Below, piece by piece: positions 1,036 through 49,023 of a stretch of DNA of 64,000 bases (position 1 is the first letter of the stretch; every line of letters begins with the position of its first letter). The notes below the pieces were generated by a model. It saw only the letters and a list, made by a program, of their open reading frames with translations. It made no database searches and was not told the DNA's origin. Source of the DNA: Halolamina sp. CBA1230 (GTDB taxonomy: Archaea; Halobacteriota; Halobacteria; Halobacteriales; Haloferacaceae). The position numbers and the translations under genes are program-made. Where the stretch lies: positions 2,232,001 to 2,296,000 of the forward strand of contig NZ_CP054587.1 of the NCBI RefSeq assembly GCF_002025255.2, given 5' to 3'.

Positions 1036-1572
1036 TCAGCCGTTCGTAAACCGGTCCAACCACGGGCTACCCTGGCCACGTATTTGATACGCTATCGACA
1101 CGAGGAGCACGACGAGTGCGCCGGACGCATACGCCGCCGGATCGAGTGTGGCCAGCACCGGCGTATCGATGACGCTGGCGAGCGTAGCGACGAGGCCGAG
1201 TACGACAACCCCGAGATGATACTCGCTCCAGGAGAGATGGCCGCGTTCGACGGCTTCGAGATAGATGTCGATTTCGTTCGCCCGGCCGCCGAGCGCCACC
1301 ATCTTCGACGTATCGTCGTACTGGACGAGATCTAGCGAGTCGAGTTTCGGAAGGTGGTTCTGGTGCAGCGTTACGTAAACGCTTTGTCGTACTTTCCGCG
1401 GCGCGGGCGACTTACCCGATTCGGCGGCGGCGATGTCGTTGGCGAGCGATCGGAGGTCCCGTGGATCTTCGTCGCTGAGGAGATTAAGAACGTGATACCG
1501 ACGGTTGTTACTCAACACATCGTGAATCTCTGCCCGATTTAGCGGCTCGTTCCTTCTTCGTTGTTTGAGCAT
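1036..1572 (-). CDS. DUF7344 winged-helix membrane-anchored regulator
   Basis: A 178-residue protein. The first ~110 residues form a winged-helix domain (IHDVLSNNRRYHVLNLL, RSLANDIAAAE, SVYVTLHQNHLPKLDSLDLVQYD) typical of the haloarchaeal DUF7344 family; two transmembrane helices follow (residues about 120-170). A homologue with the same layout is at 12488-13018, so two such regulators flank the TasA-like gene cluster. The likely role is transcription control with a membrane-sensing or tethering part; no ligand is known. The first ATG at 1572 is chosen. It diverges from the regulator starting at 1769. Confidence 0.75.
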   Translation of the reverse strand: MLKQRRRNEPLNRAEIHDVLSNNRRYHVLNLLSDEDPRDLRSLANDIAAAESGKSPAPRKVRQSVYVTLHQNHLPKLDSLDLVQYDDTSKMVALGGRANEIDIYLEAVERGHLSWSEYHLGVVVLGLVATLASVIDTPVLATLDPAAYASGALVVLLVSIAYQIRGQGSPWLDRFTNG

Positions 1573-1768
1573 TTTGTGTTTTCCTCATATACGGTTCTGC
1601 CTCCCACTTCCCTATCCCAGAGGGACTGGTACTCTTCCCATAATTGTACGTTGAGTAAGAGATTGTATAGTTAATTGCTGAGAGTAGTGTCACCTTGTGA
1701 AATTCCACCCATAATTGGTATGAAATTGACACGAGGAACTATTGCAGGTGTTACAAATATCTTGGGGT
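1573..1768. promoter_or_regulatory. AT-rich divergent promoter region
   Basis: These 196 bases between two divergent regulators are far richer in A/T than the flanks (e.g. TTGTATAGTTAATTGC near 1663). They must hold the promoters of both genes. No clean palindromic operator was found by eye. Confidence 0.45.
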
Positions 1769-2557
1769 ATGGGAGACGGCGATGCGGCTCACATCCTCCG
1801 AACTGCTGCCCGTCGGCAGCGGGTGTTCGCGGAGTTCGAGGAGGGGAACGCGACGCGATCGGATATACAGGACGCGCTCGGCGTGTCCCGTTCGACTGCA
1901 TTTCGCGTCGTCAACACCTTCGAATCTCTCGGGCTGATCTCCCGCCAGAACGGCACCTATGAACTCACCCCGTTCGGCGACGTCGTTCACTGTGAGACTT
2001 CGCGAGCGATAGGAACGATCCGCATCGCCCATAGCCTGTCGCCGCTTCTGGGCGAACTCGAGGAGACCGAGGAACCGATCGAAATCAGCGCGTTCGACGA
2101 TGCGACAGTTACCGAACTCGAACCTGGTGATCCGTACAAACCGATGCGGCGGTTTCTCTCGCTCACCGAGGACACGTCTTTCATCCGAGAGTTCACGCCG
2201 ACAACTCCGGATCCAGCCTATCAGAACACGCTTTACGATCGCGTTCGTGACGATCTCTGGGTCGCCGTGCTCTACCCGCCGTCGGCGGTCGACCAGCTGC
2301 GGCAAGAGGACGACGGTGAGTTCGAACGCGCGCTCGAGGAGGGGGAGTTCCACGTACGCGTCGGCGACCCGCCCGCGTTCCGCCTCGTCGTGACGGACGA
2401 ACGTGTCTACGTCGGTGGGTACAACGACGACGCATCGCTCCTCCAGCTCGTCGCCGACACCGCCGACCCCGACGTACAGGAGTGGGCGACACGCTGTTTC
2501 GAGACCCAGTGGGAGCGGGGGACGCCGTTCGACTCGTACGTCGAGAACCTCCGCTGA
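1769..2557 (+). CDS. HTH transcriptional regulator, FilR1-like sensor domain
   Basis: 262 residues. An N-terminal winged helix (RQRVFAEFEEGNATRSDIQDALGVSRSTAFRVVNTFESLGLI) is followed by a domain of about 170 residues resembling the middle/C-terminal domain of methanogenesis regulator FilR1 and many haloarchaeal HTH proteins (LWVAVLYPPSAVDQL, AFRLVVTDERVYVGGYND). No kinase or membrane part is seen. The ATG at 1769 gives a normal N-terminus (MGDGDAAHILRTAARR); an in-frame ATG at 1742 would add nine unusual residues. Its target is not evident; the neighbouring TasA-like cluster is a candidate by position only. Confidence 0.7.
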   Translation: MGDGDAAHILRTAARRQRVFAEFEEGNATRSDIQDALGVSRSTAFRVVNTFESLGLISRQNGTYELTPFGDVVHCETSRAIGTIRIAHSLSPLLGELEETEEPIEISAFDDATVTELEPGDPYKPMRRFLSLTEDTSFIREFTPTTPDPAYQNTLYDRVRDDLWVAVLYPPSAVDQLRQEDDGEFERALEEGEFHVRVGDPPAFRLVVTDERVYVGGYNDDASLLQLVADTADPDVQEWATRCFETQWERGTPFDSYVENLR

Positions 2558-2589: not shown

Positions 2590-2922
2590 TCACTCGGCCG
2601 GCGTCGTCTCGGTAGCTGTTGAGCTATCTATCGCAGTTCCGTTCGGCGTTTCGGTGGTACTGGGTGTTGCTGTCGCGGTTCCGTTCGGCGTTTCGGTGGT
2701 ACTGGGTGTTGCTGTCGCGGTTCCGTTCGGCGTTGCTGTCGGTGTCGTATTCTGGCCGACTTTACTCGGTGTCGCCGGGGTCTCGGTTGCCGGCGCTTCG
2801 TCGACGCTGACGGACATCCCGACTGTCTCGGTGTCGGCCAACGAGGCGACGGTAAATCCGCCCGTAAACCCGGCCAGCAGGACTACCACAACGATAACGA
2901 GCACGCCGGTCTTACTCGCCAT
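2590..2922 (-). CDS. Thr/Pro-rich single-pass surface protein, last gene of the TasA-like operon
   Basis: 110 residues: one N-terminal transmembrane segment (TGVLVIVVVVLLAGFTGGF), then an extracellular tail rich in Thr, Pro and Asn with N-x-T sequons in a repeated block (ETPNGTATATPSTT). Such tails are typical of glycosylated spacers crossing the haloarchaeal S-layer. The start ATG at 2922 overlaps the end of the signal-peptidase gene (GATGGCGAGTAA), so translation is probably coupled. It ends in ...TETTPAE with no sorting motif. Function unknown; an anchor or stalk for the neighbouring secreted proteins is a guess. Confidence 0.7.
   Translation of the reverse strand: MASKTGVLVIVVVVLLAGFTGGFTVASLADTETVGMSVSVDEAPATETPATPSKVGQNTTPTATPNGTATATPSTTETPNGTATATPSTTETPNGTAIDSSTATETTPAE
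2636..2735. repeat. 42-bp tandem repeat inside the Thr/Pro-rich gene
   Basis: Two identical 42-base units (2636-2677 and 2678-2719) and a partial third (to 2735), each starting GTTCCGTTCGGCGTTTCGG on the + strand. They encode the repeated 14-residue block of the Thr/Pro-rich tail. Exact identity points to recent expansion and likely length variation between strains. Confidence 0.85.
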
Positions 2923-3784
2923 CGTTCTCACCTCTGGACCCGACAGTGCCGACAGCTGCCGGGAGGCTTTCGCCACCGTCGGTCACCTGGCGGTTCCGTG
3001 GCTGGCTACTGGTCGAGGGCGCTTCACGTCCGGCGACGAACACCGCGGCAACGAACGCGACGACAATCGCCGCGCCGGCGAAGACGCCAACGCTCACCGG
3101 CTGGGGGTCCTGGTACGCGATGTAACCACTGTACACCGCGAGGGCGCCGAACCCGACCGTGCTCAGCTGGAGGTCGCGGGTCGTAATCACGAGGCCGTCG
3201 TCGTCGGCCACCTCCGCCGGCGAGCCGAATTCACCGACATGCTGGCGGTCGGCTGGCTCAGGCTGTTCCTCCGGCGCGTCACTTCGCGTGAAGGCGTAGA
3301 GTTCGGAGACCACGAATGCGATCACCGGGAGCCCGATCAGGAGGGCCATCCCCCTCGGCGTGTTCGCGAACATCACCACGTAACCGACGTACGGGAGTAC
3401 CACCCAGACCTCGCCCGTGACGTTCTCGGCGGGGACGAGCGCGGGGTCCGGGTCGTCGTTGGCATCGCCTTTCGTGCGGAACGCCTGGCCCCCCTCGGTT
3501 TCGACGGCTTCTACGACACGGTGTGTCACTGGCGTCGATTCCTCGGCGCGCACGAACGTGATGACGTCACCGGACTCGATGTTCGCGGGGTCGACGCTTT
3601 TCACGATGACGGCATCGCCGGCCGATATCTCCGGCTCCATACTGTCCGAGAGCACGACGTAACTGGCGTCGGCGCCGACTATGCCGGGGACTGCCTGGAC
3701 GACGAAGACGCCGACAATCAGGAGTCCCAGGATGGTGACGGCGATTCCCGCCACGCGCCGAATAGAGGGGATCACGCGGACCAC
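2912..3784 (-). CDS. SipW-like archaeal signal peptidase I
   Basis: About 290 residues from a GTG at 3784 (an in-frame GTG at 3775 is also possible); longer starts would run into the upstream gene. An N-terminal transmembrane helix (IAVTILGLLIVGVFVVQAV) precedes the catalytic Ser in SDSMEP (~48), the His that replaces bacterial Lys in archaeal/ER-type enzymes (TPVTHRVVE, ~88), and Asp residues in KGDANDDPD (~107-113). Three further hydrophobic segments follow, more than in minimal enzymes. It lies directly after seven genes with SipW-type signal sequences, so it is the probable dedicated processing enzyme, as SipW is for TasA in Bacillus. It overlaps the next gene by 11 bases. Confidence 0.88.
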   Translation of the reverse strand: MVRVIPSIRRVAGIAVTILGLLIVGVFVVQAVPGIVGADASYVVLSDSMEPEISAGDAVIVKSVDPANIESGDVITFVRAEESTPVTHRVVEAVETEGGQAFRTKGDANDDPDPALVPAENVTGEVWVVLPYVGYVVMFANTPRGMALLIGLPVIAFVVSELYAFTRSDAPEEQPEPADRQHVGEFGSPAEVADDDGLVITTRDLQLSTVGFGALAVYSGYIAYQDPQPVSVGVFAGAAIVVAFVAAVFVAGREAPSTSSQPRNRQVTDGGESLPAAVGTVGSRGENDGE

Positions 3785-3827
3785 CCCGCAAGCGCCGGTG
3801 CAAGCGACCGTTTTCGGTTGTGTGTAG

Positions 3828-4853
3828 TTACTGCCATGGGTTTCTCGGATTCGTGTGACGGCATTGGCTGGCGAACAGTTCCAGATCGAACGACACCGAC
3901 TCACCGGCGACCGGTTTCGGGTTCGGGAGTCGCCAGTCCAGGGTGAGACACGCCGGCTCGCAGCCGACACAGCTGTCGCCGGCGCACTCGAAGATGACGA
4001 AGTGACTGAGGCCGCTCGGCCTCCCGGCTGGGTTCGATTCGGTGACCAACTCTTTCGCCGTGGCGGCACAGTCAGGCCGGTAGGTCACGACACCCGCATC
4101 GGGCCCCCCGCCGCCTTTCACGTCCACGCGGCAGAACTCGAACGCGTCCGCCCGGAGGTCGACACCACGGACTTCGTCCCCGTCGTCCTTCCAGTGGAGC
4201 CCCGTAATTTCGACGTCGACGGGGCCGTCAGGCCCGTCGAGAGTCAACGTCCCGGGGACGGCGTCGATGGGCAGCGACTCCCCGGTTCCTTCGGCGACGA
4301 ACTCGGCAGGATCCTCGGTGAGCTCGATTTTCCCGAGTTCCCGGCAGTTACCGGCACCGAGCAGGCTGCCCTCCCCGTACGCGTCGAAAAGTTCGGAGAG
4401 GGATCCCTCGTAGAGAGTGTCACCGGCCTCCTCGGCCGCAGGTGCGTACGTGAGCGTGACCTCCATCGCGTCGGCAAGTGTGCCGGATTCGCCGTCCTGC
4501 AGCCGCAACCAGACGCGGCCGGGGTTCTCACACACGCGGAACGCGACGGTCGTCGACCCGGACGTTTGGCCCTGGCTCGGGTCGATAGCCGGGAACGCGA
4601 CGGTGATCGTCGACTCCGGAACGAACGTCGACGGGAACGAGCCGTCCTGTTCCGGGGTGTACGACGTCGTGGACTCGGACTCGGTACGCGTCGCGATCTC
4701 GAGATCGAGCGACCCCCCCGCCATGGCGTTCGAACGGAACAGTTCGCCGTCGGTGAGGTACGCGTACGTGCCGACCCCGGAGGCGCCGCCGAGGCTCGCC
4801 GCCCCAGCGAACGTGACGCCACGCAGGATCGAACGCCGCGAGACGTCAGGCAT
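3828..4853 (-). CDS. TasA/camelysin-like secreted protein, divergent paralogue
   Basis: 341 residues with signal region SRRSILRGVTFAGAASLGGASG then GTYAYLTDGELFRSN, the SipW-type pattern shared with the genes upstream. The core follows the family order: SGSTTVAFRVCENPGRVWLRL, a DAMEVTLTY strand, and C-terminal LTLDWRLPNPKPVAGESVSFDLELFASQCRHTN. It differs in an insert containing several Cys (FECAGDSCVGCEPACL and others), suggesting disulphides. Likely a secreted fibre or matrix subunit. The gene has its own probable promoter and an upstream short ORF overlapping its start, so it and the peptidase may be expressed apart from the first six paralogues. Confidence 0.8.
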   Translation of the reverse strand: MPDVSRRSILRGVTFAGAASLGGASGVGTYAYLTDGELFRSNAMAGGSLDLEIATRTESESTTSYTPEQDGSFPSTFVPESTITVAFPAIDPSQGQTSGSTTVAFRVCENPGRVWLRLQDGESGTLADAMEVTLTYAPAAEEAGDTLYEGSLSELFDAYGEGSLLGAGNCRELGKIELTEDPAEFVAEGTGESLPIDAVPGTLTLDGPDGPVDVEITGLHWKDDGDEVRGVDLRADAFEFCRVDVKGGGGPDAGVVTYRPDCAATAKELVTESNPAGRPSGLSHFVIFECAGDSCVGCEPACLTLDWRLPNPKPVAGESVSFDLELFASQCRHTNPRNPWQ

Positions 4854-4902
4854 CGTCGATTCCCTCCGTTTCTGTCCGGGGCACGCCCACGCGTACGTCC
4901 AT
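4846..4902 (-). CDS. Short upstream ORF (18 codons) overlapping the start of the TasA-like gene
   Basis: An ATG at 4902 opens 18 codons (MDVRVGVPRTETEGIDDA) whose TGA overlaps the ATG of the next gene (ATGCCTGA). It lies ~23 bases after a TATA-like box, so the transcript could start at or near this ATG. It may be a leader peptide that couples or regulates translation of the downstream gene, or simply an accidental ORF; there is no coding evidence beyond its arrangement. Confidence 0.4.
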   Translation of the reverse strand: MDVRVGVPRTETEGIDDA

Positions 4903-4917
4903 TGTTGACATACTTAT

Positions 4918-4932
4918 TGGTCTATTTAGGCG
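4918..4932 (-). promoter_or_regulatory. Probable internal promoter (TATA box) of the distal part of the cluster
   Basis: On the minus strand GCCTAAATAGACC lies about 23 bases before the upstream ORF ATG at 4902 and about 72 before the ATG at 4853. The spacing to 4902 fits archaeal TATA-to-start distance for a leaderless transcript. The 4854-4964 gap is also clearly richer in A/T than neighbouring gaps in this cluster. Confidence 0.5.
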
Positions 4933-4964
4933 CCGAGCTGGCTGTTTAACTGGTCGTGAAACAG

Positions 4965-5648
4965 TCACGTCTCATCACACGGTTCGACCGTGAAGCTGAG
5001 CGACGTCTCGACGCTGTCTCCCTGTATTCGGTTCCCGACCGACCGGGGCAACGACCAGGAGATGCCGACACAGACCGCGCTCGTCGGGTCGAGGCAGTCG
5101 CCGCCGAGCGGAACCCCCTCGGCGAGTGCAGTGTCCGCGTCGACTAGCGACCCGTCCACGAGCACGGTCTCCGCAACGTCCAGGTCCCCGTCACAGCCGC
5201 CGAGCCCGGAGACGCCGAGCGACCCCGTGTCGTACCAGACCGCGACGTCGAGGGCGTCGGCGAGTTCGCCGCGATCGGTGGTCGTGTCGCCGGCGCTCCG
5301 CTCGGGCTCGTTCCGGCCGTTCTCGCTGTTCGCGGTGAGCGCGAGCGACATGCTGGCGCTCACTGCTTGATCGTCGTTTTCCGGCGTCACTCGGAACGCT
5401 AGCGTCCCGGAATCTCCTGGGTGGGCGTTTCCGACGTTGAGGGCCGGTTCGTCGGTCGTCTCGTCACCGGCGTCGACGACCGTGCCGTTGTACGTCTCCC
5501 GCCAGTCCACGCGAACCGACGGGTCGCTGCCGACCGTCGTCGACGACTGGTAGGCGACCGCGTCCGAGGTGAGCGCGGTGAGGCCCGCTACCGACGCCGC
5601 ACCAGCCAGCGCAACGGACCCGAGCAGTCGACGGCGGTTCAACTCCAC
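4965..5648 (-). CDS. TasA/camelysin-like secreted protein, short paralogue
   Basis: 227 residues from a GTG at 5648, three bases from the end of the previous gene (its TAG is at 5651-5653), which implies translational coupling. Signal: ELNRRRLLGSVALAGAASVAGLTALTSDAVAYQ. The core is shorter and more diverged than its neighbours: VGNAHPGDSGTLAFRV replaces the usual VKPGD motif and the protein ends LSFTVEPCDET instead of EQCRNND. GISWSLPRSVGNRIQGDSVETSLSF keeps the family C-terminal signature. Likely a minor or terminal fibre subunit; role inferred only from family and position. Confidence 0.75.
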   Translation of the reverse strand: MELNRRRLLGSVALAGAASVAGLTALTSDAVAYQSSTTVGSDPSVRVDWRETYNGTVVDAGDETTDEPALNVGNAHPGDSGTLAFRVTPENDDQAVSASMSLALTANSENGRNEPERSAGDTTTDRGELADALDVAVWYDTGSLGVSGLGGCDGDLDVAETVLVDGSLVDADTALAEGVPLGGDCLDPTSAVCVGISWSLPRSVGNRIQGDSVETSLSFTVEPCDET

Positions 5649-5650
5649 GG

Positions 5651-6643
5651 CTACGCCTCCGTGAACGGGCTCGTCGCCCCGTCGTTGTTCCGGCACTGTA
5701 CTGCCGCGAACGTGAGGTCGAAGGTCACGCTGTCGCCCTGCACGACGTTCCCGACGCTCGCGGGGAGCGTCCACTCGAAGCCGAGGTACCGGGCCTGTTC
5801 GTCCTCCGGCTGGTCCTGCGGGAAACAGTCGCGGTCGGCAGTTTCGGGATGTCCGTCCAGTGGTATGCCGTCGTCGACTGCCGCGAGCAGCTCCCCGAGC
5901 GTTCCCTCGAAGACGAGCGGGCGCTCGGGCGGCGTCTCGTCGCTCTCGCGGTCCTCGTCGCCGTCGTCGTACCAGAGCGTCACCTCGATGGCGTCGGGGA
6001 GCTCGCCCGCGCTGGAGCCGTCACCGGGGTCGTCCTCGGCCGCGGCGTCGAGCTCCGGCTCCACGACCGCGCCCTCACTGTTGGCGTCCAGCGAGCCGCC
6101 GAGCCAGACGTACCCGGGCTCGTCGAACAGGTGCATGCTGTAGGTGACCGATCCGAAGTCGCCGGGTTTCACGTCGTCGAGGTCGATGACCGGCCCCTCC
6201 ACGACGAAGTTCGGAGAGTTCGCGAACTGTTCGCGGTACGCCTGCTCGACGGCGACGCGGTCAGCCTCGTCGAGATCGCCGTATGCCGTTCCGTGCATAT
6301 CCTCGACCACGTCGTCGCGAGTCCGTATCGGGTCCTGGATGCCGTCGGGCTCCTCGACCGGCGGGCTGTTCGTGTCGAGTTCGTCGGGATTGTTTGGGTC
6401 GTTCTTGTACCGGTCCGGAAACGCGTTGACGTACTCGGTCCCGTTCCCCCGGTCGTACTTCTGTTGCCAGTCCAGTCGCGCGTCCATCGCCCCCGCCGTG
6501 ATCGTGTTGTCCTCGAACGTCTCGGAGTCACTGAGAAGGGCGGTCGTGCCGAGGCCGGCACTAGCCGACGCCAGCCCGACGCCGCCCAGCCCAGCAAGTA
6601 CGGTGCGCCGCGAGAGTCGGTAGTGTTGCCTGTCGTCGCTCAT
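5651..6643 (-). CDS. TasA/camelysin-like secreted protein
   Basis: 330 residues. Signal LSRRTVLAGLGGVGLASASAG then LGTTALLSDSETFEDNTITAG, the most conserved N-terminus in this family. Core landmarks: LDDVKPGDFGSVTYSMHLFDEPGYVWLG, DAIEVTLWYDDGD, and ASVGNVVQGDSVTFDLTFAAVQCRNND near the C-terminus. An insert at about residues 55-125 (rich in Asp, Asn, Pro) is absent from the short paralogues. Exported and cleaved by the SipW-like peptidase by inference. Its leader carries one of the tRNA-like structures (6664-6714). Confidence 0.85.
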   Translation of the reverse strand: MSDDRQHYRLSRRTVLAGLGGVGLASASAGLGTTALLSDSETFEDNTITAGAMDARLDWQQKYDRGNGTEYVNAFPDRYKNDPNNPDELDTNSPPVEEPDGIQDPIRTRDDVVEDMHGTAYGDLDEADRVAVEQAYREQFANSPNFVVEGPVIDLDDVKPGDFGSVTYSMHLFDEPGYVWLGGSLDANSEGAVVEPELDAAAEDDPGDGSSAGELPDAIEVTLWYDDGDEDRESDETPPERPLVFEGTLGELLAAVDDGIPLDGHPETADRDCFPQDQPEDEQARYLGFEWTLPASVGNVVQGDSVTFDLTFAAVQCRNNDGATSPFTEA

Positions 6644-6663
6644 GGTTGCTCCCCGAACGGGAA

Positions 6664-6714
6664 ACCCACCGGCGGAGTCGAACCGCCGTTCCGCGGCCGC
6701 GTACCGACGTGGGT
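6664..6714 (-). promoter_or_regulatory. tRNA-like folded leader A upstream of the 5651-6643 gene
   Basis: On the minus strand the leader reads ACCCAC (6714-6709) ... GGCGGTTCGACTCCGCC (6687-6671) G GTGGGT (6669-6664). The outer stem (6 bp) closes around a T-arm-like hairpin whose loop TTCGACT fits the canonical tRNA T-loop. A second small hairpin (CCCG/CGGG, 6651-6661) lies between this fold and the ATG at 6643. The same plan, with different stem bases, occurs before two neighbouring paralogues, supporting a real RNA structure. Confidence 0.6.
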
Positions 6715-6717
6715 CGA

Positions 6718-6738
6718 TTCGGACCGCTTGGGTCCGAA
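6718..6738 (-). terminator. 8-bp hairpin after the laminin-type paralogue
   Basis: TTCGGACC-CAAGC-GGTCCGAA on the minus strand, 23 bases after the stop of the 6762-8546 gene. It could be a terminator, a processing site or an mRNA-stabilising end between two operon genes. No T-tract follows, so it is not a classic archaeal terminator. Confidence 0.4.
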
Positions 6739-6761
6739 CGATGGTGGTCGATTATGGGTCG

Positions 6762-8546
6762 CTACGGCTGCATCGAGACGTTGTCGAGGTAGCCCTTGTC
6801 GGAGCCAGAGCGGTACTCGCCGCGGATCCGGAGTTCGGTGAGGTCGGCGAGGACTGTCTCAATCTCGGTCTGGGTGGCGGCGCTGCCGCTGACCATCCAG
6901 TTGTCGCTCTCGTCGAGCGTGACGTTGTAGGATGTCCAGTTGCCGGACGTGCCGTTCCCGGGATTCTGGGCCGTATCGTAGGTCAGCGTGAGGCCGCCAC
7001 CGGATAGCGTGATGTCGTCGTTGTCGAACTGACTCGGACTGCCGGAGAACTCCTGCATGAGGTCGAACGACAGGGTTCCGCCGTAGAACCCTGACTTGCC
7101 GCCAAGGAACTTCCCGGGCGCCTCGAAGTACCAGGTCCCGCCCTGGACGTCGTCCGTCGCGGAGATCGATGGAGCCGGGTTGCCCGCCGACGGCTCGTAG
7201 TCTGGGACGGACGCGCCGCCCTGTGCGTCGCCGGTGATCTTCCAGCCGTCGTCGTCCTCATCGAAGGTACTGCTAACCGGACCGGGCGTGGAACTCGGGG
7301 GGACGAGTGTGAGCGTCCCTGGTCCGATTTCTCCGCCGTTGACGTCGACGACGACGGAGTAGTCGTCCGCGGACGAGGCGTTCGTGGCGTCCCGGTATTC
7401 GACGAAGATCGTGTCGCCCGTGGCGACCGTGACGCCGCCAGCCAGAGAGAACTGGATAGCGGTGTCGCTGTCGCTCGCGGTGGTCCCGGTGACGGTGACG
7501 GCGTCGATGCTGCTGTCCGCGCGTTCGACACCCGCACCGAGGACGTCCCCAGTTCCCACGCCGCCCACGTCGAAGTCGCCCGGATAATCCACCGCGAACG
7601 ACGAGAGGGAGTCACCTCCCAGGCCGGAGCCGACGGGCACCTCGACGCGGTGGATGCTGTCGGTCGCGCCGGCGGTGTCCGGTGTCGCGCTGATGGAGAC
7701 GGCGTCGGGTACCTCCTCCTCGCCCGTGCACGGATTGTGCGTGCCGTCGTTGTTTCGGCACTGCTCGGCGTGGAACGCCAGGTCGAACTCCAGTGAGTCG
7801 CCTTGGATCTCGTTGCCGACGGAGGTCGGAACCTCCCAGTCGAGGCAGAGACAGGGGTTGGACGCTTCGGCGGCGCCCGTGCCGGCGAAACAGGCCTGCT
7901 CACCCGGCACGTCGAACCCGCCGTCGCTGGCCGGTTCCCCGTCGCCGTCCAGAGGGACGCCGTTCTGAGTCGACGACATGAGGTCGGCCAAGCTTCCGCT
8001 CCACACCTCCGCGAGCGTCGAGACGTCCTCCGGGTCGAAGCTGTCCCCGACTTCGCCAACGTCGCAGTAGTTGACGGTGACGCTGATGCTCTCGGCCAAC
8101 TCACCCGCACCCTCCGGATCGCCGGGATCGTTGACGTCCCCGTTCTCACTCGTTTCGGGTTCCGGCTCCGTGTACCCGTTCTCGCTGTTCTCGGTGATCT
8201 CCCCACAGAGCCAGAGGTACGCGGGGTTTGTCTCGACGACGGGACAGAACGCCAGGAGCCCACTGTCGCCCGGCTTGACGTCGCCCAGCTCGGCGCTGAC
8301 GGTCCCGCTCCCGTCCTTGCTCCCTTGGACGCTGCCGGAGCCGGCCATCCCTTGGTCCCAGTAGGAGTAGTAGCCGACCAGCAGGTCGAGCGTGCCCGCG
8401 GTGATGGTGTTGTCTTCGAACGATTCGGTGTCGTTGAGATACGCGCTCGTTCCGAGGCCCGCGCTCGCCGACGCGATACCGGCGCCGCCGAGCCCGGCAA
8501 GCACGGTCCGCCTCGAGAGGCGGTATCGGTTGTTACGGTCACTCAT
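6762..8546 (-). CDS. TasA/camelysin-like secreted protein with C-terminal laminin-B-like domain
   Basis: 594 residues from the ATG at 8546. Residues 1-40 carry the family signal (LSRRTVLAGLGGAGIASASAG, TSAYLNDTESFEDNTITAG). The TasA-like core ends near 265 with VGNEIQGDSLEFDLAFHAEQCRNND. A beta-rich domain follows (~275-405; DSLSSFAVDYPGDF, IQFSLAGGVTVATGDTIFVEY). The last ~165 residues look like a laminin-B (domain IV) module: GGTWYFEAPGKFLGGKSGFY, GGTLSFDLMQEF, LTELRIRGEYRSGSDKGYLDNVSM. Laminin-B modules are extracellular matrix parts, so this is probably a large adhesive or capping subunit. The domain call is from pattern memory and needs a profile search. Confidence 0.82.
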   Translation of the reverse strand: MSDRNNRYRLSRRTVLAGLGGAGIASASAGLGTSAYLNDTESFEDNTITAGTLDLLVGYYSYWDQGMAGSGSVQGSKDGSGTVSAELGDVKPGDSGLLAFCPVVETNPAYLWLCGEITENSENGYTEPEPETSENGDVNDPGDPEGAGELAESISVTVNYCDVGEVGDSFDPEDVSTLAEVWSGSLADLMSSTQNGVPLDGDGEPASDGGFDVPGEQACFAGTGAAEASNPCLCLDWEVPTSVGNEIQGDSLEFDLAFHAEQCRNNDGTHNPCTGEEEVPDAVSISATPDTAGATDSIHRVEVPVGSGLGGDSLSSFAVDYPGDFDVGGVGTGDVLGAGVERADSSIDAVTVTGTTASDSDTAIQFSLAGGVTVATGDTIFVEYRDATNASSADDYSVVVDVNGGEIGPGTLTLVPPSSTPGPVSSTFDEDDDGWKITGDAQGGASVPDYEPSAGNPAPSISATDDVQGGTWYFEAPGKFLGGKSGFYGGTLSFDLMQEFSGSPSQFDNDDITLSGGGLTLTYDTAQNPGNGTSGNWTSYNVTLDESDNWMVSGSAATQTEIETVLADLTELRIRGEYRSGSDKGYLDNVSMQP

Positions 8547-8568
8547 GGTTGTACCCCTCTCGGGGGAG

Positions 8569-8656
8569 GCCCACCGGCGGAGTCGAACCGCCGCATCGCG
8601 GCACGGCTGTGGCGCAGCGACTGGCTGCGCGCGCACCGACGAAGGCCGGCGTGGGC
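8569..8656 (-). promoter_or_regulatory. tRNA-like folded leader B upstream of the 6762-8546 gene
   Basis: Minus strand: outer stem GCCCAC (8656-8651) with GTGGGC (8574-8569); inner hairpins GCGCAGC-CAGTC-GCTGCGC (8630-8612) and the T-arm-like GGCGGTTCGACTCCGCC (8592-8576). A further CCCC/GGGG hairpin (8554-8565) sits before the ATG at 8546. It is 88 bases, tRNA-sized, but has no canonical D-loop and no U before a plausible anticodon, so it is not called a tRNA. Confidence 0.6.
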
Positions 8657-8670
8657 GGAGAGAGCCATCG

Positions 8671-9501
8671 CTACGAGCCGCCGAACGGGGCGTCGTTGTT
8701 GCGGACCTGCTCGGCGTCGAACTGGAGCGTGAACGTCACCGAGTCGCCCTGGATCTCGTTGCCGACCTCCGGTGGAAGCTCGAAGAGCTGGTAGTAATGG
8801 ACATCCGCATAGTCGCTGACGCTCCCGACCTCGATCGGCGTGCCACTCGAATCACTGAGCACCACGCCGTCGAGATACTCGCTGTGGGCTTCGTTGAGGG
8901 TTGTGTAGTGCGCCCCGCTGGTCGTGACGCCGTCGAGGTCCGGCGTTTCGTACCCGGACAGCCACGTGTCGTTGTGGTCGGTGGTCTCGTCGAGATCCTG
9001 GAGCCCCCCACGGTCAGACCCGGCCGTGGAGTCCGTGCTTCCCCAGATGGTCGTGAGCAACGCGGCGCCGAGGTCGCCCGGTGCGGCGGTGTCGGTCTCC
9101 GCCTCGGGGTTGGCGCCCTCGGCGTTGCTGTAGTCCTCGTCGACCGACGTGACCTGCACGTAGCCGGGGTTGCCGTCGATCTCGACGTGCCAGTCGAGGA
9201 CGAACCAGTCGCCCGGTTTCATATCGTCGACGGTGACGGTGATCTCGTTCCCGTCGGCCGTGTCATCGGCGGCTTCGTCCGTGGAGTCGACGACTGGGTC
9301 CGGGAGCTCCGGGCTCTTGTCGTGGATGTCCACGGACACGAGCATGTTCAGCGCGCCTGCGGTCAAGCTGTTCCCCTCGAACGACTCGGTGTCGTTGAGG
9401 TACGCAGTCGTACCCAGGCCGGCACCTGCGGACGCGAGTCCGACGCCGCCGACGCCAGCGAGCAGTTTCCGCCGTGTGAGTTCGAGTCGTTTGTCCGTCA
9501 T
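8671..9501 (-). CDS. TasA/camelysin-like secreted protein, W-type paralogue
   Basis: 276 residues from the ATG at 9501. Signal: LTRRKLLAGVGGVGLASAGAG, TTAYLNDTESFEGNSLTAG. It belongs with the 11422-12264 protein in a subgroup where the core motif is MKPGDWFVLDWHVEIDGNPGYVQVT and a segment HYTTLNEAHSEYLDGVVL precedes the C-terminal PPEVGNEIQGDSVTFTLQFDAEQVRNND. Ends FGGS after the conserved motif. Presumed secreted fibre subunit. A longer frame exists upstream but runs through the previous gene and the leader structure. Confidence 0.85.
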   Translation of the reverse strand: MTDKRLELTRRKLLAGVGGVGLASAGAGLGTTAYLNDTESFEGNSLTAGALNMLVSVDIHDKSPELPDPVVDSTDEAADDTADGNEITVTVDDMKPGDWFVLDWHVEIDGNPGYVQVTSVDEDYSNAEGANPEAETDTAAPGDLGAALLTTIWGSTDSTAGSDRGGLQDLDETTDHNDTWLSGYETPDLDGVTTSGAHYTTLNEAHSEYLDGVVLSDSSGTPIEVGSVSDYADVHYYQLFELPPEVGNEIQGDSVTFTLQFDAEQVRNNDAPFGGS

Positions 9502-9527
9502 TTTTGGTCGCTCCCCTGTCGGGGGAA

Positions 9528-9585
9528 GACTCACGAGCGGAGTCGAACCGCTCGGCACGCTGCTCGTGCCGCACCTGCGTGAGTC
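9528..9585 (-). promoter_or_regulatory. tRNA-like folded leader C upstream of the 8671-9501 gene
   Basis: Minus strand three-way junction: outer stem GACTCAC (9585-9579) with GTGAGTC (9534-9528), hairpin GGCACG-AGCAG-CGTGCC (9570-9554), and T-arm-like hairpin GAGCGG-TTCGACT-CCGCTC (9553-9535). A CCCC/GGGG hairpin (9513-9524) follows before the ATG at 9501. All stems differ in sequence from leaders A and B but keep pairing, while the loop TTCGACT is constant. Confidence 0.62.
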
Positions 9586-9620
9586 GAAACCGCCGGAAAG
9601 AAGTTGGGCCCGAGCTTGGA

Positions 9621-11414
9621 TTAGCTCCCTCCTGGGTTGTCGTTGTTCCTGCACTGCTCCGTGTAGAACCCGAGGTCGAAGCTCAGCGAGTCGCCCTGGA
9701 TCTCGTTGCCGACAGTAGTCGGCACCCACCACGCGAACCCGACGTAATGGGTCACGCCTGGCATGAAGCACTCGCGGCTGTCTGCGAACGGGTCGCCGGC
9801 CAGTTCGTCGAACTCGCTCGCACGATTCCCGTCCAGTGCGATTCCTTGCCCGGACTCGAGCAGGTCGAGGTCACCAGCGAGTGTCCCGCGCCGGAACACC
9901 TCGCCGCAATACGCGCCGGCGGTCATGTCGCCGAAGTCGTACTCGTAGGGCTCGTTGTCGAGCGTCATCGCGTACGACTCGGTGATACTGCCGTCGGTCC
10001 GATCGACGACGTGGATCTCGTCGTTGTCGCGGTCGGAGGCGACGAGGTTTCCGGTGCCGGCGTCACGGATGGCCAGTCCGGTGATACGCTCGTCTTTCAC
10101 GCCGATGTTATCCTCGTCGACGGGAACGGCCGTCGGATCGTTGCTCGGATCGTTGACCTGGTAGAGTCCGTCGTCGTCGGTGTTCGCCGTCCAGATGTAC
10201 ATCGTCCCGTCGGAAGAGAACACGAGGTCCGCCCCCGAGAGATCGATACCGGTGTCTCCCTGAGACGTGACCGAGGGAGCCGACGGATCCACGGTGTAGA
10301 GTTCGTCCGTGTCTTGGCTCGCCGCCCAGAGCGTTCCACTCGGCGAGTATCCGGCAAGGACGATTCCGCCGGGGTCGCTGGAAATCGGCCCTTCGTCGGT
10401 GAATGTGTCGCCGTCGATGTCGTACGTTCCCAGGTGTCCGGAGTTCTTGTCGTAGAACAGGATCTTGTCACCGTTGGGTGTCGTGGCGATCGCGTCCGTC
10501 TGATCGAAGTCGTTGTCGCTGTACTCACCGGGACCCAGGAGCTCGGTCAGCTCTGCCTCGCCACTGTCGTCGTCCAGCGTGACCTCGAACAGGGTGGTCG
10601 GACTGGTTCCGCTGTCAGCAAGGTACAGCTTCTCCTCGCAGTCGGTCTGGAGGACGTTGTCGCCCCGCGAATCGTACCACCAGACTGTTTGGATGTTCTC
10701 GGCGAGCTCCGGCATCTCGGACGTCTCGTCGACTTCACCCTCCGGGTCGTTGATGCCGTTCTCCGCCTCGGAGAAGCCCATCGCCTGCAGCCACACGTAC
10801 CCGGGGTTGTCACAGAGGTGGAAGCTCAGTGTTAACTCCCCGAAGTCGCCGGGCTTGACGTCCTCGAGACTGATGAGGGGTTTCGGCTCGCCTTCGGTGC
10901 CGACCGTGCTGTCGTTGTTTGTGCGCGTAGCAGTCCCCTCCTCGCCGGGGTCGAGGTCGTCGTTGAGGTCCGCGCCGTGGTCGCACGGCATGTACGTGAA
11001 CTCTCCGTCCTCGACTTCCTGCACGCCATCGTGGTTTGGGTCCGGGAACGCCTCGATGGACGTGTTCATCATGTACGTCCCGAGGTCGTCCTCGTGGACC
11101 CAGACCTGCGGATTCGATGGGTCGGGCATCCCGACGTAGTTGTCCGGTTCGTCGGGCTCCGAGCGGTGGACACCGTAGTCCAGCCCGTTCTCGGGGTCGT
11201 CGAACCCGTAGAGCTGGGGGTAGGAGTAGTGCTCCTCCCAGTCGACTTTCAGGTCGAGCTCGCCCGCGCTAATCGTGTTGCCCTCGAACGACTCGGTGTC
11301 GTTGAGGTACGCGCTCGTTCCGAGGCCCGCACCCGCGGAGGCGAGGCCGACACTGCCGAGGCCCGCCAGCACCTTGCGGCGGGAGAGTTCGAACGACGTG
11401 GATCTATCACTCAT
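9621..11414 (-). CDS. TasA/camelysin-like secreted protein with inserted beta-propeller-like domain
   Basis: 597 residues. Signal LSRRKVLAGLGSVGLASAGAG, TSAYLNDTESFEGNTISAG. Core: LEDVKPGDFGELTLSFHLCDNPGYVWLQ and C-terminal TTVGNEIQGDSLSFDLGFYTEQCRNND. Between them, about residues 258-490, lies a block of repeated strands resembling propeller blades: AIATTPNGDKILFYDKNSG, AGYSPSGTLWAASQDTDELYTVD, FSSDGTMYIWTANTDDDGLY, RDAGTGNLVASDRDNDEIHVVD. Such propellers usually bind proteins or sugars. The core resumes after the insert (MTAGAYCGEVFRRGTLAGDL). Only eight bases separate it from the gene upstream. Confidence 0.83.
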   Translation of the reverse strand: MSDRSTSFELSRRKVLAGLGSVGLASAGAGLGTSAYLNDTESFEGNTISAGELDLKVDWEEHYSYPQLYGFDDPENGLDYGVHRSEPDEPDNYVGMPDPSNPQVWVHEDDLGTYMMNTSIEAFPDPNHDGVQEVEDGEFTYMPCDHGADLNDDLDPGEEGTATRTNNDSTVGTEGEPKPLISLEDVKPGDFGELTLSFHLCDNPGYVWLQAMGFSEAENGINDPEGEVDETSEMPELAENIQTVWWYDSRGDNVLQTDCEEKLYLADSGTSPTTLFEVTLDDDSGEAELTELLGPGEYSDNDFDQTDAIATTPNGDKILFYDKNSGHLGTYDIDGDTFTDEGPISSDPGGIVLAGYSPSGTLWAASQDTDELYTVDPSAPSVTSQGDTGIDLSGADLVFSSDGTMYIWTANTDDDGLYQVNDPSNDPTAVPVDEDNIGVKDERITGLAIRDAGTGNLVASDRDNDEIHVVDRTDGSITESYAMTLDNEPYEYDFGDMTAGAYCGEVFRRGTLAGDLDLLESGQGIALDGNRASEFDELAGDPFADSRECFMPGVTHYVGFAWWVPTTVGNEIQGDSLSFDLGFYTEQCRNNDNPGGS

Positions 11415-11421
11415 CGTTCAC

Positions 11422-12264
11422 CTAGGTGTCCGTAGTGTTGCCGGTGCTGTTGTCAGCGAACGGATCTCCGTTGTTTCGGGACTGTTCGGTGTCGAAGACG
11501 AGGTCGAAGCTCAGCGAGTCGCCCTGGATCTCGTTGCCGACTTCCGTCGGGATCTCGAGCAGCAGGCAGAACTCTGGATTGAACTCGTCACCGTCGTCCC
11601 CGATCTCCATCGGCATTCCGTCGCTGTTCATCAGGGTAACGCCCGTGCTGTACGTGTCGTAGGCCTCCTGAAGCGTGGTGTAGTGTGGTCCCTCAGTGAT
11701 TTCACCGCCCTCCGAGCGTGACGAGTCCCAGCTGTGGGTCGGTATCGTATCGCCCGCGTTGTTCGTTGTGTCGTCGAGACCCGTGAGGTCACTACGACTT
11801 TCACCGTCGAAGCTCTGCCAGACAGTCGCCAGAATGGCCTCTTCGAGTTCACCTTCACCGTTTTCGTCCTCTTCCTCCGGTTCCGTGTAGCCGTTCTCGG
11901 ACGACGTGAGGTTGGCAGTGCTGACTTGGACGTAACCGGGGTTATCCCCGATGTCGATGTCGAAGCAGATGATCGCCCAGTCGCCGGGTTTGACGTCGTC
12001 GACCACGAGGCCAGTAACGGCCTCGCCGTCGGCCGTTTCGGACATCGGGAATTCTGCTTGGTCCTCCCAGTAACCGTTAGCAGCCTCGATCTGTGCGGTA
12101 ACGCTCATGTCGAGCGTGCCCGCGGTGATTGTGTTGTCTTCGAACGATTCCGTGTCGTTGAGGTACGCGGAGGTGCCGAGCCCGGCGGCGGCACCGGCGA
12201 CACCGATGGTGCCGAGACCGCCCAGGACGCGACGTCGCGTGAGTTCGAGTTTCTTTTTCGACAT
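11422..12264 (-). CDS. TasA/camelysin-like secreted protein, first gene of the cluster
   Basis: 280 residues from the ATG at 12264. Signal LTRRRVLGGLGTIGVAGAAAG, TSAYLNDTESFEDNTITAG. W-type core: VDDVKPGDWAIICFDIDIGDNPGYVQVS, then HYTTLQEAYDTYSTGVTL and PTEVGNEIQGDSLSFDLVFDTEQSRNN. It is the promoter-proximal gene of the run of paralogues and so perhaps the most expressed, a candidate main subunit. Its leader has a GTGGCA-AGGCC-TGCCAC hairpin (about 12285-12301) but no T-arm-like fold. Confidence 0.85.
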   Translation of the reverse strand: MSKKKLELTRRRVLGGLGTIGVAGAAAGLGTSAYLNDTESFEDNTITAGTLDMSVTAQIEAANGYWEDQAEFPMSETADGEAVTGLVVDDVKPGDWAIICFDIDIGDNPGYVQVSTANLTSSENGYTEPEEEDENGEGELEEAILATVWQSFDGESRSDLTGLDDTTNNAGDTIPTHSWDSSRSEGGEITEGPHYTTLQEAYDTYSTGVTLMNSDGMPMEIGDDGDEFNPEFCLLLEIPTEVGNEIQGDSLSFDLVFDTEQSRNNGDPFADNSTGNTTDT

Positions 12265-12487: not shown

Positions 12488-13018
12488 ATGAGCCTCTCCC
12501 GGTCGTCGCGGCTCGCGGAGACGGATATTCACGACATCCTTCGCAATGACCGGCGGCGGCGCGTCATCGAGCACCTGCAGGCGTCCGTGGGGACTGTGAC
12601 GCTGCGCGAGCTCGCGGAGACCATCGCCGCCCACGAATCAGGCGACTCGCCGCCGCCGAAGTCGGTCCGGGACAGCGTCTACAACTCCCTCCACCAGACC
12701 CACCTCCCGAAGCTCGACGATGAGGGCGTCGTCGAATACGACGAACACAGGAAGACTATCGAGCTGCGTCCGGGGGCCCGCGACGTCAATGTGTACATGG
12801 AAGTCGTGACGAAGTACGGCATCACCTGGGCGGACTACTACCGGACAGTCGCGACGCTCACGCTCGTGATCGTGGTCGCCACCGAACTCGGTACTCCCGT
12901 CATCGGGGACGTTCCAACGCTCCTCTGGGCGAGTATCTCGCTCGTCGTCGTCGCCGCGTCGACGGCGTATCAGCTGTGGACACGGCGATGGACGTACCTC
13001 AGGGCGCTACTGGACTGA
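12488..13018 (+). CDS. DUF7344 winged-helix membrane-anchored regulator
   Basis: 176 residues: winged helix (DIHDILRNDRRRRVIEHLQ, LRELAETIAAHE, SVYNSLHQTHLPKLDDEGVVEYD) and two C-terminal transmembrane helices (VATLTLVIVVATELG, ISLVVVAASTAYQLW), the same plan as the 1036-1572 protein. It is transcribed away from the first TasA-like gene with a shared promoter region, the usual position for a local regulator. Target and signal are inferred from position only. Confidence 0.78.
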   Translation: MSLSRSSRLAETDIHDILRNDRRRRVIEHLQASVGTVTLRELAETIAAHESGDSPPPKSVRDSVYNSLHQTHLPKLDDEGVVEYDEHRKTIELRPGARDVNVYMEVVTKYGITWADYYRTVATLTLVIVVATELGTPVIGDVPTLLWASISLVVVAASTAYQLWTRRWTYLRALLD

Positions 13019-47667: not shown

Positions 47668-49023
47668 ATGACCGACGACAACCCAATCAAACTGTCTCGA
47701 CGGAAGGTACTCGGCGGTGTCGGAGCGATCGGGCTCGCGAGCGCGGGCGCCGGACTCGGCACGACTGCCTACTTCAACGACACCGAATCGTTCGCCGGGA
47801 ACAGCCTCGAAGCGGGCGAACTCGACCTGTTCGTCCACGTCGACTACACCGAAGACCAGGGCGACTACGCCCAGTGGAGCACGCCGCCGGGCACGTTCAT
47901 CGACGGTGATGTCGTCGGTGGCGGCGACGGCGAGCCCCTCAGCATCGAAGTGACCGACCTCAAGCCCGGCGACTCCGGGGAAGGGGAGTTCTGTTTCTCG
48001 ATCGTCGACAACCCCGCCTACCTCTGGATCTGTGGCGGGCTGACCGAGAACGCCCAGAACGAAACGACCGAGCCCGAGGAAGACGCGCTCGAGGAGCTGT
48101 ACGGCTCCACACCTGCCGACGGCCAGCTGGCCGACGCGATGACGGTCACGCTCTCGTACTGCACCACCGAGCTGGACGAGGAAACCGAGGAGGAGACCAC
48201 GGTGATCGGCGACGAGGTCGTCTCGGGCTCGCTCGCGGAGGTCATGGCGATGCTCGCCGCCGGCGTTCCGCTCGCGGGCGACGGCGACGGCGAGGCGCCC
48301 CTCGCGGACCGCCCCGTCTTCGAGGGCGTCGACGATCAGACCGACACCGCCGAAACGTGCCTCTGCTTCGAGTGGTCGGTCCCCACCGACGTCGGCAACG
48401 AGATCCAGACAGACTCCGTGGCGTTCGATCTGGAGTTCTACGCCGAACAGGCCCGCCACAACGACGGCACGACCAACCCCTGCATCGACGCCTCCTACAG
48501 CGCCGACTACGTCAACCCCGACGGGATCGCCCAGCCGATCCCCGAGGGCGCGGCCCGGGTCGACGTGACCTACGGCGACGAGAACGTCGTCTACGGCGTC
48601 ACGTTCGACGAACCCGACGGCAGCCAGCACAGCCTAGCCGACCCGAACTTCGCGAACGCGAACTTCTCGCTCCCGTTCGACGTCGAGGACGACGGCGCCT
48701 ACGACTTCCAGGTGGCCTGGAATGCCGAGGGGAACGACGCGTTCCGGTACTCCGGCGTGGAGAGCGGCCCCAACTGGGAGAAGGACACCTCGGCCGGCTG
48801 GTCCGCGCTCCCCTCGGGGTTCACCGCCGTCAAGTCGGGGTCGCAGGCGTTCATCAGCGTCCCACGTTCCCAGCTCGAGACCGGTGGGGCCGCCTACGGC
48901 TTCGGATTCAACGCAAGCGCCGGCGGCGAGCAGCCCTCGGTGTCGATCCCCAGCGGCGGTCCGTACTCCTCGAACGCGAACTGGACGTCGAGCGAGAACA
49001 GCCAGGAGGAGACCGTCCAGTAG
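47668..49023 (+). CDS. TasA/camelysin-like secreted protein, eighth paralogue, with C-terminal beta domain
   Basis: 451 residues. Signal LSRRKVLGGVGAIGLASAGAG, TTAYFNDTESFAGNSLEAG. Core: VTDLKPGDSGEGEFCFSIVDNPAYLWICG, DAMTVTLSYC, and PTDVGNEIQTDSVAFDLEFYAEQARHND near residue 270. An extra C-terminal region of ~170 residues (YSADYVNPDGIAQPIPEG..., RVDVTYGDENVVYGVTFDEP, GAAYGFGFNASAGGEQPSVSIP) looks like a beta-sandwich. It sits 35 kb from the main cluster with no peptidase next to it, so it probably shares the SipW-like enzyme. Confidence 0.85.
   Translation: MTDDNPIKLSRRKVLGGVGAIGLASAGAGLGTTAYFNDTESFAGNSLEAGELDLFVHVDYTEDQGDYAQWSTPPGTFIDGDVVGGGDGEPLSIEVTDLKPGDSGEGEFCFSIVDNPAYLWICGGLTENAQNETTEPEEDALEELYGSTPADGQLADAMTVTLSYCTTELDEETEEETTVIGDEVVSGSLAEVMAMLAAGVPLAGDGDGEAPLADRPVFEGVDDQTDTAETCLCFEWSVPTDVGNEIQTDSVAFDLEFYAEQARHNDGTTNPCIDASYSADYVNPDGIAQPIPEGAARVDVTYGDENVVYGVTFDEPDGSQHSLADPNFANANFSLPFDVEDDGAYDFQVAWNAEGNDAFRYSGVESGPNWEKDTSAGWSALPSGFTAVKSGSQAFISVPRSQLETGGAAYGFGFNASAGGEQPSVSIPSGGPYSSNANWTSSENSQEETVQ

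Follow-up and report, generated by a model that had tools for sequence, protein, structure and literature searches.

The closest described counterparts of the system reported here are the TasA/camelysin filament subunits and, at the RNA level, the t-elements of haloarchaea. TasA residues P62 and Q232 touch at the protomer interface and are among the most conserved camelysin positions (PMC10151520), and monomeric TasA self-complements before assembly (PMC9674648, PMC9715654). In Haloferax volcanii, a tRNA-like structure 5' of the 5S rRNA is a tRNase Z substrate (PMC4326828), and t-elements serve there as RNase P/tRNase Z substrates (PMC4326828, PMC4946936). We analysed a window of 64,000 nucleotides (nt) within the 3.47 Mb genome of Halolamina sp. 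CBA1230 (contig NZ_CP054587.1, positions 2,232,001 to 2,296,000), which holds an operon of TasA-like genes with tRNA-like elements in its spacers. The reading we favour, and judge probable, is that of a TasA/camelysin-type secreted filament operon whose message is split by tRNase Z and RNase P at these elements.

Seven consecutive minus-strand genes, g1 to g7 (window positions 3828-12264), encode homologous secreted proteins and are followed by a peptidase gene, g8, and a Thr-rich gene, g9, whose product may be an anchor:

11422-12264, minus strand: g1, short TasA-like subunit, 280 amino acids (aa), mature from Y34; twin-arginine translocation (Tat) plus SipW-type signal (PF12389 26.9 bits, TIGR04088 32.5 bits)
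9621-11414, minus strand: g2, TasA-like subunit with two insertions, 597 aa (TIGR04088 29.9 bits; split core match; AlphaFold2 predicted local distance difference test (pLDDT) 80.4)
9906-10640, minus strand: predicted beta-propeller at insertion site 2 of g2, mature residues 224-468 (VIA-align, Foldseek)
8671-9501, minus strand: g3, short TasA-like subunit, 276 aa (PF12389 23.4 bits, TIGR04088 25.6 bits)
6762-8546, minus strand: g4, TasA-like subunit with C-terminal extension, 594 aa (TIGR04088 29.3 bits)
6768-7130, minus strand: Laminin_B domain at the C-terminus of g4, residues 473-593 (PF00052 74 bits)
5651-6643, minus strand: g5, TasA-like subunit, 330 aa (TIGR04088 24.4 bits; core profile 210 bits)
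4965-5648, minus strand: g6, conserved accessory TasA-like subunit without the DTESF donor motif, GTG start (hhalign; order in relatives)
3828-4853, minus strand: g7, divergent accessory TasA-like subunit with an inserted KGG-containing domain (hhalign; family alignment)
2912 to about 3784, minus strand: g8, archaeal-type signal peptidase I (SipW-like), start codon uncertain (TIGR02228 126.4 bits)
2590-2922, minus strand: g9, N-terminal hydrophobic segment and Thr/Pro-rich tail (sequence)

These gene calls follow the first-pass annotation, with refined starts. The intergenic gaps measure 7 nt between g1 and g2, 119, 124 and 118 nt before g3, g4 and g5, 2 nt between g5 and g6, 111 nt between g6 and g7 and about 43 nt between g7 and g8, while g8 and g9 overlap. 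The first-pass annotation had credited all seven paralogues with a common set of motifs. Seven adjacent homologues with twin-arginine (RR) signals are indeed present, but the full DTESF / KPGD..NPGY / GNEIQGD..EQxRNN signature is confined to g1-g5, g6 having neither the DTESF block nor the final EQCRNN and g7 carrying degenerate versions. TIGR04088, the profile of the SipW-type signal, scored above its cut-off in g1-g5 (24-32 versus 19 bits) and gave no match in g6 or g7. The search of TasA/camelysin families that had been proposed as a check returned the Pfam camelysin family PF12389 (cut-off 22.5 bits), passed only by g1 and g3, with g2 and g4 just under the cut-off and g5-g7 unmatched. A profile of the mature core alone matched both the g6 family (hhalign E 1.7e-23) and the g7 family (E 1.2e-24), so the homology of these two proteins is independent of the signal peptide. 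The NCBIfam TasA equivalog NF046066 was far from being reached (14.9 versus 450 bits for g3), and g3 is therefore not a Bacillus TasA orthologue.

We then modelled mature g1 as a monomer using AlphaFold2 on 29 sequences (pLDDT 76.2, predicted template modelling score 0.77), and found that Foldseek ranked TasA first (5of2, probability 1.00) and that VIA-align superposed the model on the TasA fibre (8aur, Z 8.6, root-mean-square deviation 3.4 over 148 aligned residues) and on the TasA crystals (5of1 and 5of2, Z 8.5), compared to Z 5.6 for the best unrelated chain. The Pyrobaculum bundling pilin AbpA (7ueg, Z 5.2) is unconvincing as a match by itself because it scores below that unrelated chain. 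The predicted core fold is thus that of TasA, not an unrelated one. The link came through fold comparison only: sequence profiles of the PDB failed to reach TasA, and a profile set against the single TasA sequence aligned the KPGD region only (probability 10). The best PDB sequence match of the TasA-like proteins, the chain 9p0a 'Pilin', was rejected as it aligned mainly via the Tat signal. Residues 1-18 of the g1 model (the YLNDTESFEDNTITAGTL segment) have no secondary structure, nearly all of residues 1-14 fall below pLDDT 50, and the N-terminus is free in both AlphaFold2 models (g1 and g2), leaving a candidate complementing strand as had been anticipated. Invariant in the 29 relatives are D4, E6, F8, N11, A15 and G16 of the donor segment, P60-G61-D62 and Q228, of which P60 (of KPGD) and Q228 correspond to the TasA interface residues P62 and Q232. 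Because the predicted fold is that of TasA, the modelled N-terminus is free and the interface residues are conserved, we infer that assembly follows the TasA mode. The proposed relationship to TasA and camelysin is borne out by predicted fold, profiles and recurrence in relatives.

In all 13 paralogues of the genome (13/13), the RR pair and a Leu three residues on are invariant, and the genome has three TatC matches. Haloarchaea commonly use Tat, which serves 39-55% of their secreted proteins (PMC2945643). Because monomeric TasA self-complements, a folded subunit could cross Tat and polymerise later. The suggestion of a dedicated peptidase also holds: g8 passes the archaeal signal peptidase I profile TIGR02228 (126.4 versus 51.85 bits), while staying under the cut-off of the Bacillus SipW equivalog NF046067 (103 versus 190 bits), and of the genome's three genes that exceed the signal peptidase I cut-off, two lie within TasA clusters.

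The 118-124 nt spacers before g3, g4 and g5 share a minus-strand layout of closing stem, T-arm-like hairpin (loop TTCGACT), short GC hairpin and start codon, and their closing stems differ in sequence yet pair (GACTCAC/GTGAGTC, GCCCAC/GTGGGC and ACCCAC/GTGGGT). We built a covariance model, R1, from 30 elements taken from pilin spacers only, using N-padded short-linker elements because MAFFT could not align the acceptor 5' strand across its variable linker; R1 E-values are rough, owing to a short calibration. The RNA features of the operon are as follows:

9528-9585, minus strand: tRNA-like element before g3, with acceptor GACTCAC/GTGAGTC, internal hairpin and T-arm GAGCGG-TTCGACT-CCGCTC (cmscan tRNA-Sec 23.8 bits, below gathering; R1 19.3 bits; fold z -2.8)
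8568-8614, minus strand: tRNA-like element before g4 (R1 32.6 bits, E 0.002 genome-wide)
6663-6715, minus strand: tRNA-like element before g5 (R1 41.7 bits, E 1.5e-5, best match in the genome)
9502-9527, minus strand: CCCC-GACA-GGGG hairpin between the element and the g3 start (sequence; CCC..GGG in 89/101 elements)
8547-8567, minus strand: CCCC-GACA-GGGG-type hairpin before g4 (sequence)
6644-6662, minus strand: CCCC-GACA-GGGG-type hairpin before g5 (sequence)

Before g4, the 5' acceptor strand may sit farther upstream, to about 8656 (an alternative 57-nt linker). The end of each element lies about 19-26 nt from the start codon, and the G-rich arm of the hairpin may serve as a Shine-Dalgarno sequence; among relatives, the T-arm-like hairpin was found 5' of about a third of TasA-like genes. 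True tRNA genes were ruled out (best Rfam tRNA/tRNA-Sec score 23.8 versus 47 bits; linkers of 8-13 nt), and cmscan matches to mir-598 in the spacers were put down to chance.

Conservation of pairing was assessed in 101 elements selected by the loop core GGTTCGANNCC alone, so that no stem outside this core was imposed. The four outer T-stem positions are paired in 91-101 of these 101, depending on the position, with G-C, A-U and G-U all used. Across the 13-bp structure, both-side changes occur at 10 pairs and 95.6% of cells are paired compared to 83.1% after shuffling (0/500 shuffles as good), the acceptor part of this covariation count being biased upward by a partner that was picked by pairing. 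Tested with less bias, the acceptor forms a perfect stem in 40 cases, versus 16.7 expected with left halves swapped, an excess that is real but modest because most elements share CCCAC/GTGGG. The linker has an early GG in 75/86 elements, which could stand in for the GG by which the D-loop of tRNA contacts the T-loop. Covariation among relatives identifies the spacers before g3, g4 and g5 as tRNA-like t-elements.

We found that R1 is specific in both strand and placement. It gave 86 matches in 940 kb of loci, 86/86 on the operon sense strand. In the whole genome its top three matches lie before g5, before a DUF1102 Tat pilin (a homologue of the solved chain 9p0a, E 1.8e-9) and before g4, and the match at rank 7 (19.5 bits) abuts the organism's own 5S rRNA exactly. 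At E 0.001, matches occur in 45 of 145 genomes, with 5S rRNA abutted in two further genomes. A tRNase Z gene is present in the Halolamina genome. The genes after 104 surveyed elements comprise 69 TasA-like genes, 13 DUF1102-type pilins, 5 others with RR signals, 12 other genes and 5 unassigned. The element stands before 83 of 126 internal SipW-type genes, compared to 9 of the 61 genes that come first in their operon and 8 of the 95 internal genes of the g6/g7 type, and the operon survey found none in gaps of less than 40 nt. In a second TasA cluster of the same genome, described below, a spacer looks similar, yet has no R1 match.

In the filament operon that we propose, subunits would be folded in the cytoplasm and exported by Tat, as the invariant RR signals suggest. 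The operon's own peptidase would cut before Y/L-x-x-DTESF, consistent with the SipW-type motif, and the freed N-terminal segment would be donated into the groove of the next subunit. Here g1, g3 and g5 would be plain core subunits, g2 (propeller) and g4 (Laminin_B) display subunits with exchangeable binding domains, and g6 and g7 conserved accessory subunits, perhaps starter, cap or base. Cleavage of the elements by tRNase Z and RNase P would yield four messages (g1-g2; g3; g4; g5-g6-g7-g8-g9), with cuts about 20-26 nt ahead of the start codon. The last three messages would each begin with a stable hairpin (19-26 nt before the start), and a single promoter could thereby supply core, display and accessory subunits in different quantities. 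Whereas the structure and placement of the element are shown by sequence comparison, its cutting and the effect of cutting are proposed from the precedent of the 5S t-element.

Several points weigh against this proposal. Filament, cleavage and RNA processing are predictions from sequence and models, and the fold model is a monomer of moderate confidence, from which we only infer donor-strand exchange. The Tat profile TIGR01409 reaches 14-15 bits, just under its 16.7 cut-off, so the Tat assignment rests on the RR motif. Only the g3 element is clearly more stable than its shuffles (z -2.8; the others -0.6 and -0.1), the acceptor count carries the bias noted above, and 69 of 158 internal spacers of 80-300 nt have no such element. 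Finally, a role in translation is inseparable from processing by sequence alone. Such a role, in which a TasA-type filament is made from a message whose elements act uncut in translation or stability, with T-loop/elbow and hairpin masking or presenting the Shine-Dalgarno sequence, would fit a distance to the start codon that hardly varies (about 20-26 nt), the CCC..GGG hairpin in 89/101 elements and the position of the elements before internal genes. We nevertheless think it unlikely, as R1 also detects 5S t-elements, which are known as sites of tRNase Z cleavage, and the acceptor is followed in 0/101 elements by CCA, a sequence that would be unfavourable to tRNase Z.

Scanning genomes, we obtained 67 loci, nearly all from Halobacteria. 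Their gene order, [subunits]-[g6]-[g7]-[peptidase], varies remarkably little, and the peptidase stands at the 3' end in 53 of 58 testable clusters. The g6-type profile matches 60/145 genomes of the class Halobacteria and 33/58 genera, although at E 1e-5 it also catches other family members. The first-pass annotation had offered two views of the many paralogues, of which several subunit types is supported by predicted fold, profiles and recurrence; phase- or condition-specific coats fared less well, because a gene order kept across many genera favours fixed subunit roles over phase-variable coats. That the products form no filament and are instead separate secreted surface or matrix proteins sharing an old TasA-like domain seems to us quite improbable: the display domains (propeller, Laminin_B, von Willebrand factor A (vWA)) could work alone, but fold and interface residues follow TasA, and many paralogues are served by one peptidase in a constant gene order. 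In assemblies of Amesbacteria (L084) and Archaeoglobus (L086) we observed a TasA-like gene beside a signal peptidase gene, which suggests that the pair is spread more widely.

Two further features of the window belong to this family or adjoin its clusters:

12488-13018, plus strand: DUF7344 gene divergent from the operon, probable regulator (PF24035 104 bits)
47668-49023, plus strand: solo TasA-like paralogue with C-terminal extension, outside the operon (sequence)

Besides the solo paralogue, the genome has a second cluster (L021, 4447-13112; G000:C1:1020447-1029112) in which the same gene order is repeated, with TasA-like subunits (two of them with vWA), a g6-type and a g7-type gene, its own peptidase and a Thr-rich protein, as well as a further subunit with a C-terminal extension. 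A divergent DUF7344 homologue adjoins 54 of 60 clusters, and its product probably regulates the operon. Just 3' of the operon are a further DUF7344 gene and one for a FilR1-type regulator (window 1036-1572, minus strand, and 1742-2557, plus strand); unlike the divergent DUF7344 gene, the FilR1-type gene is rarely near the operon in relatives.

The proposed display subunits differ between lineages in what they carry. Insertions concentrate at one site of the core, with 99 of 136 at profile positions of about 155-195, and Pfam finds vWA in 31 of 78 long paralogues. Within the g2 scaffold group (n=22), 14 members carry a vWA domain with a DxSxS metal ion-dependent adhesion site (MIDAS) motif, 4 a propeller-type insert like that of the window and 4 a third domain. 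The insert of the window's g2 folds as a propeller in the model (VIA-align Z of about 14-16 over 224-468; Foldseek probability 1.00) and is 86% identical to that of a Halobellus protein (L076) on a scaffold 66-71% identical, whereas a Halodesulfurarchaeum protein (L025) shares 62-69% identity in the scaffold and has an unrelated insert (20%). On the g2 scaffold tree, the propeller label must have changed at least twice along well-supported branches. The pattern suggests head swapping, that is, the exchange of domains as cassettes on a common fibre subunit; among the top matches of a literature search for vWA with TasA or camelysin, fusions of the two are unreported. The C-x-V-x-x-KGG domain of g7, internal in the window's g7 and its closest relative and a C-terminal extension in many others, may be another movable domain. 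We consider it very improbable that display subunits are swapped by recombination or insertion of DNA at the spacers, with the elements acting as tRNA-like attachment sites. Integrases often use tRNA genes, and display domains have been exchanged between lineages, but the stems change on both sides with pairing kept, the elements hardly vary in orientation or in their distance from the start codon, and the cassette that was exchanged is part of the gene itself rather than a segment bounded by spacers.

Beyond this operon, we would give even odds to a wider proposal: haloarchaea punctuate the multi-pilin messages of two unrelated Tat-pilin families, TasA-like and DUF1102, with mini tRNAs cut by tRNA-processing enzymes, so that every subunit has a message and a dose of its own, while TasA-like subunits serve as a scaffold for propeller, vWA and laminin-type heads exchanged as cassettes. 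The RNA punctuation appears to be new. Together with the twin-arginine signals as a class, the propeller, the Laminin_B domain, domain swapping at a common site and the divergent DUF7344 gene, the tRNA-like elements go beyond what the first-pass annotation described. As a side observation, a locus elsewhere in the genome (L103, 4542-9840; G000:C1:2170542-2175840) encodes four Tat pilins of the DUF1102 type in a single operon. They are homologous to 9p0a, and one contains a right-handed beta-helix. A tRNA-like element (39.9 bits) lies 15 nt 5' of the operon's second gene, and the third gene is followed by a weaker element. In L106 and L121 an element precedes a gene starting MQSRRTVLGLV..., and in L107 and L178 an element precedes genes for Sec-type proteins of about 490 aa; these are two more secreted families, perhaps further fibre types.

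With this operon, haloarchaea have a concrete candidate TasA-type filament. If our proposal is true, tRNA-processing enzymes are tied to the dosage of surface-fibre subunits, a mitochondrial kind of tRNA punctuation on archaeal mRNAs; a role of t-elements beyond 5S rRNA becomes directly testable, and haloarchaeal genetics gains a compact natural element for cutting messages.

The layout of head-swapping adhesins is, to our knowledge, so far known only from bacterial pili. The Gram-positive pilus tip adhesins RrgA and GBS104 carry a vWA domain with MIDAS on a pilus subunit; their subunit fold is unrelated and they are assembled by sortase, and the likeness is one of analogy only. The B. subtilis TasA/TapA/SipW and B. 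cereus TasA/CalY/CapP systems resemble the window operon in predicted fold, in the KPGD and Gln interface residues, in the SipW-type signal and in having a peptidase in the operon, and B. cereus likewise has more than one camelysin. Compared to Bacillus, the window operon has twin-arginine type signals, seven paralogues and tRNA-like elements between its genes, and propeller, Laminin_B or vWA domains are inserted in haloarchaeal subunits. AbpA of Pyrobaculum calidifontis is an archaeal TasA-like donor-strand filament (PMC9674648, PMC10151520) and is a weak structural match (7ueg, Z 5.2); the window differs in having a multi-subunit operon with display domains, and a sequence-profile match in the PDB is absent. 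The haloarchaeal Tat-fimbriae (tafi, TafA) are thin Tat-exported surface fibres (as cited in PMC12687288). With the Haloferax volcanii 5S t-element, one covariance model fits both, sharing the acceptor stem, the TTCGANT T-arm and a short linker with GG, while the window elements lie in mRNA spacers before internal pilin genes, are repeated in one operon and are followed by a GC hairpin and a start codon.

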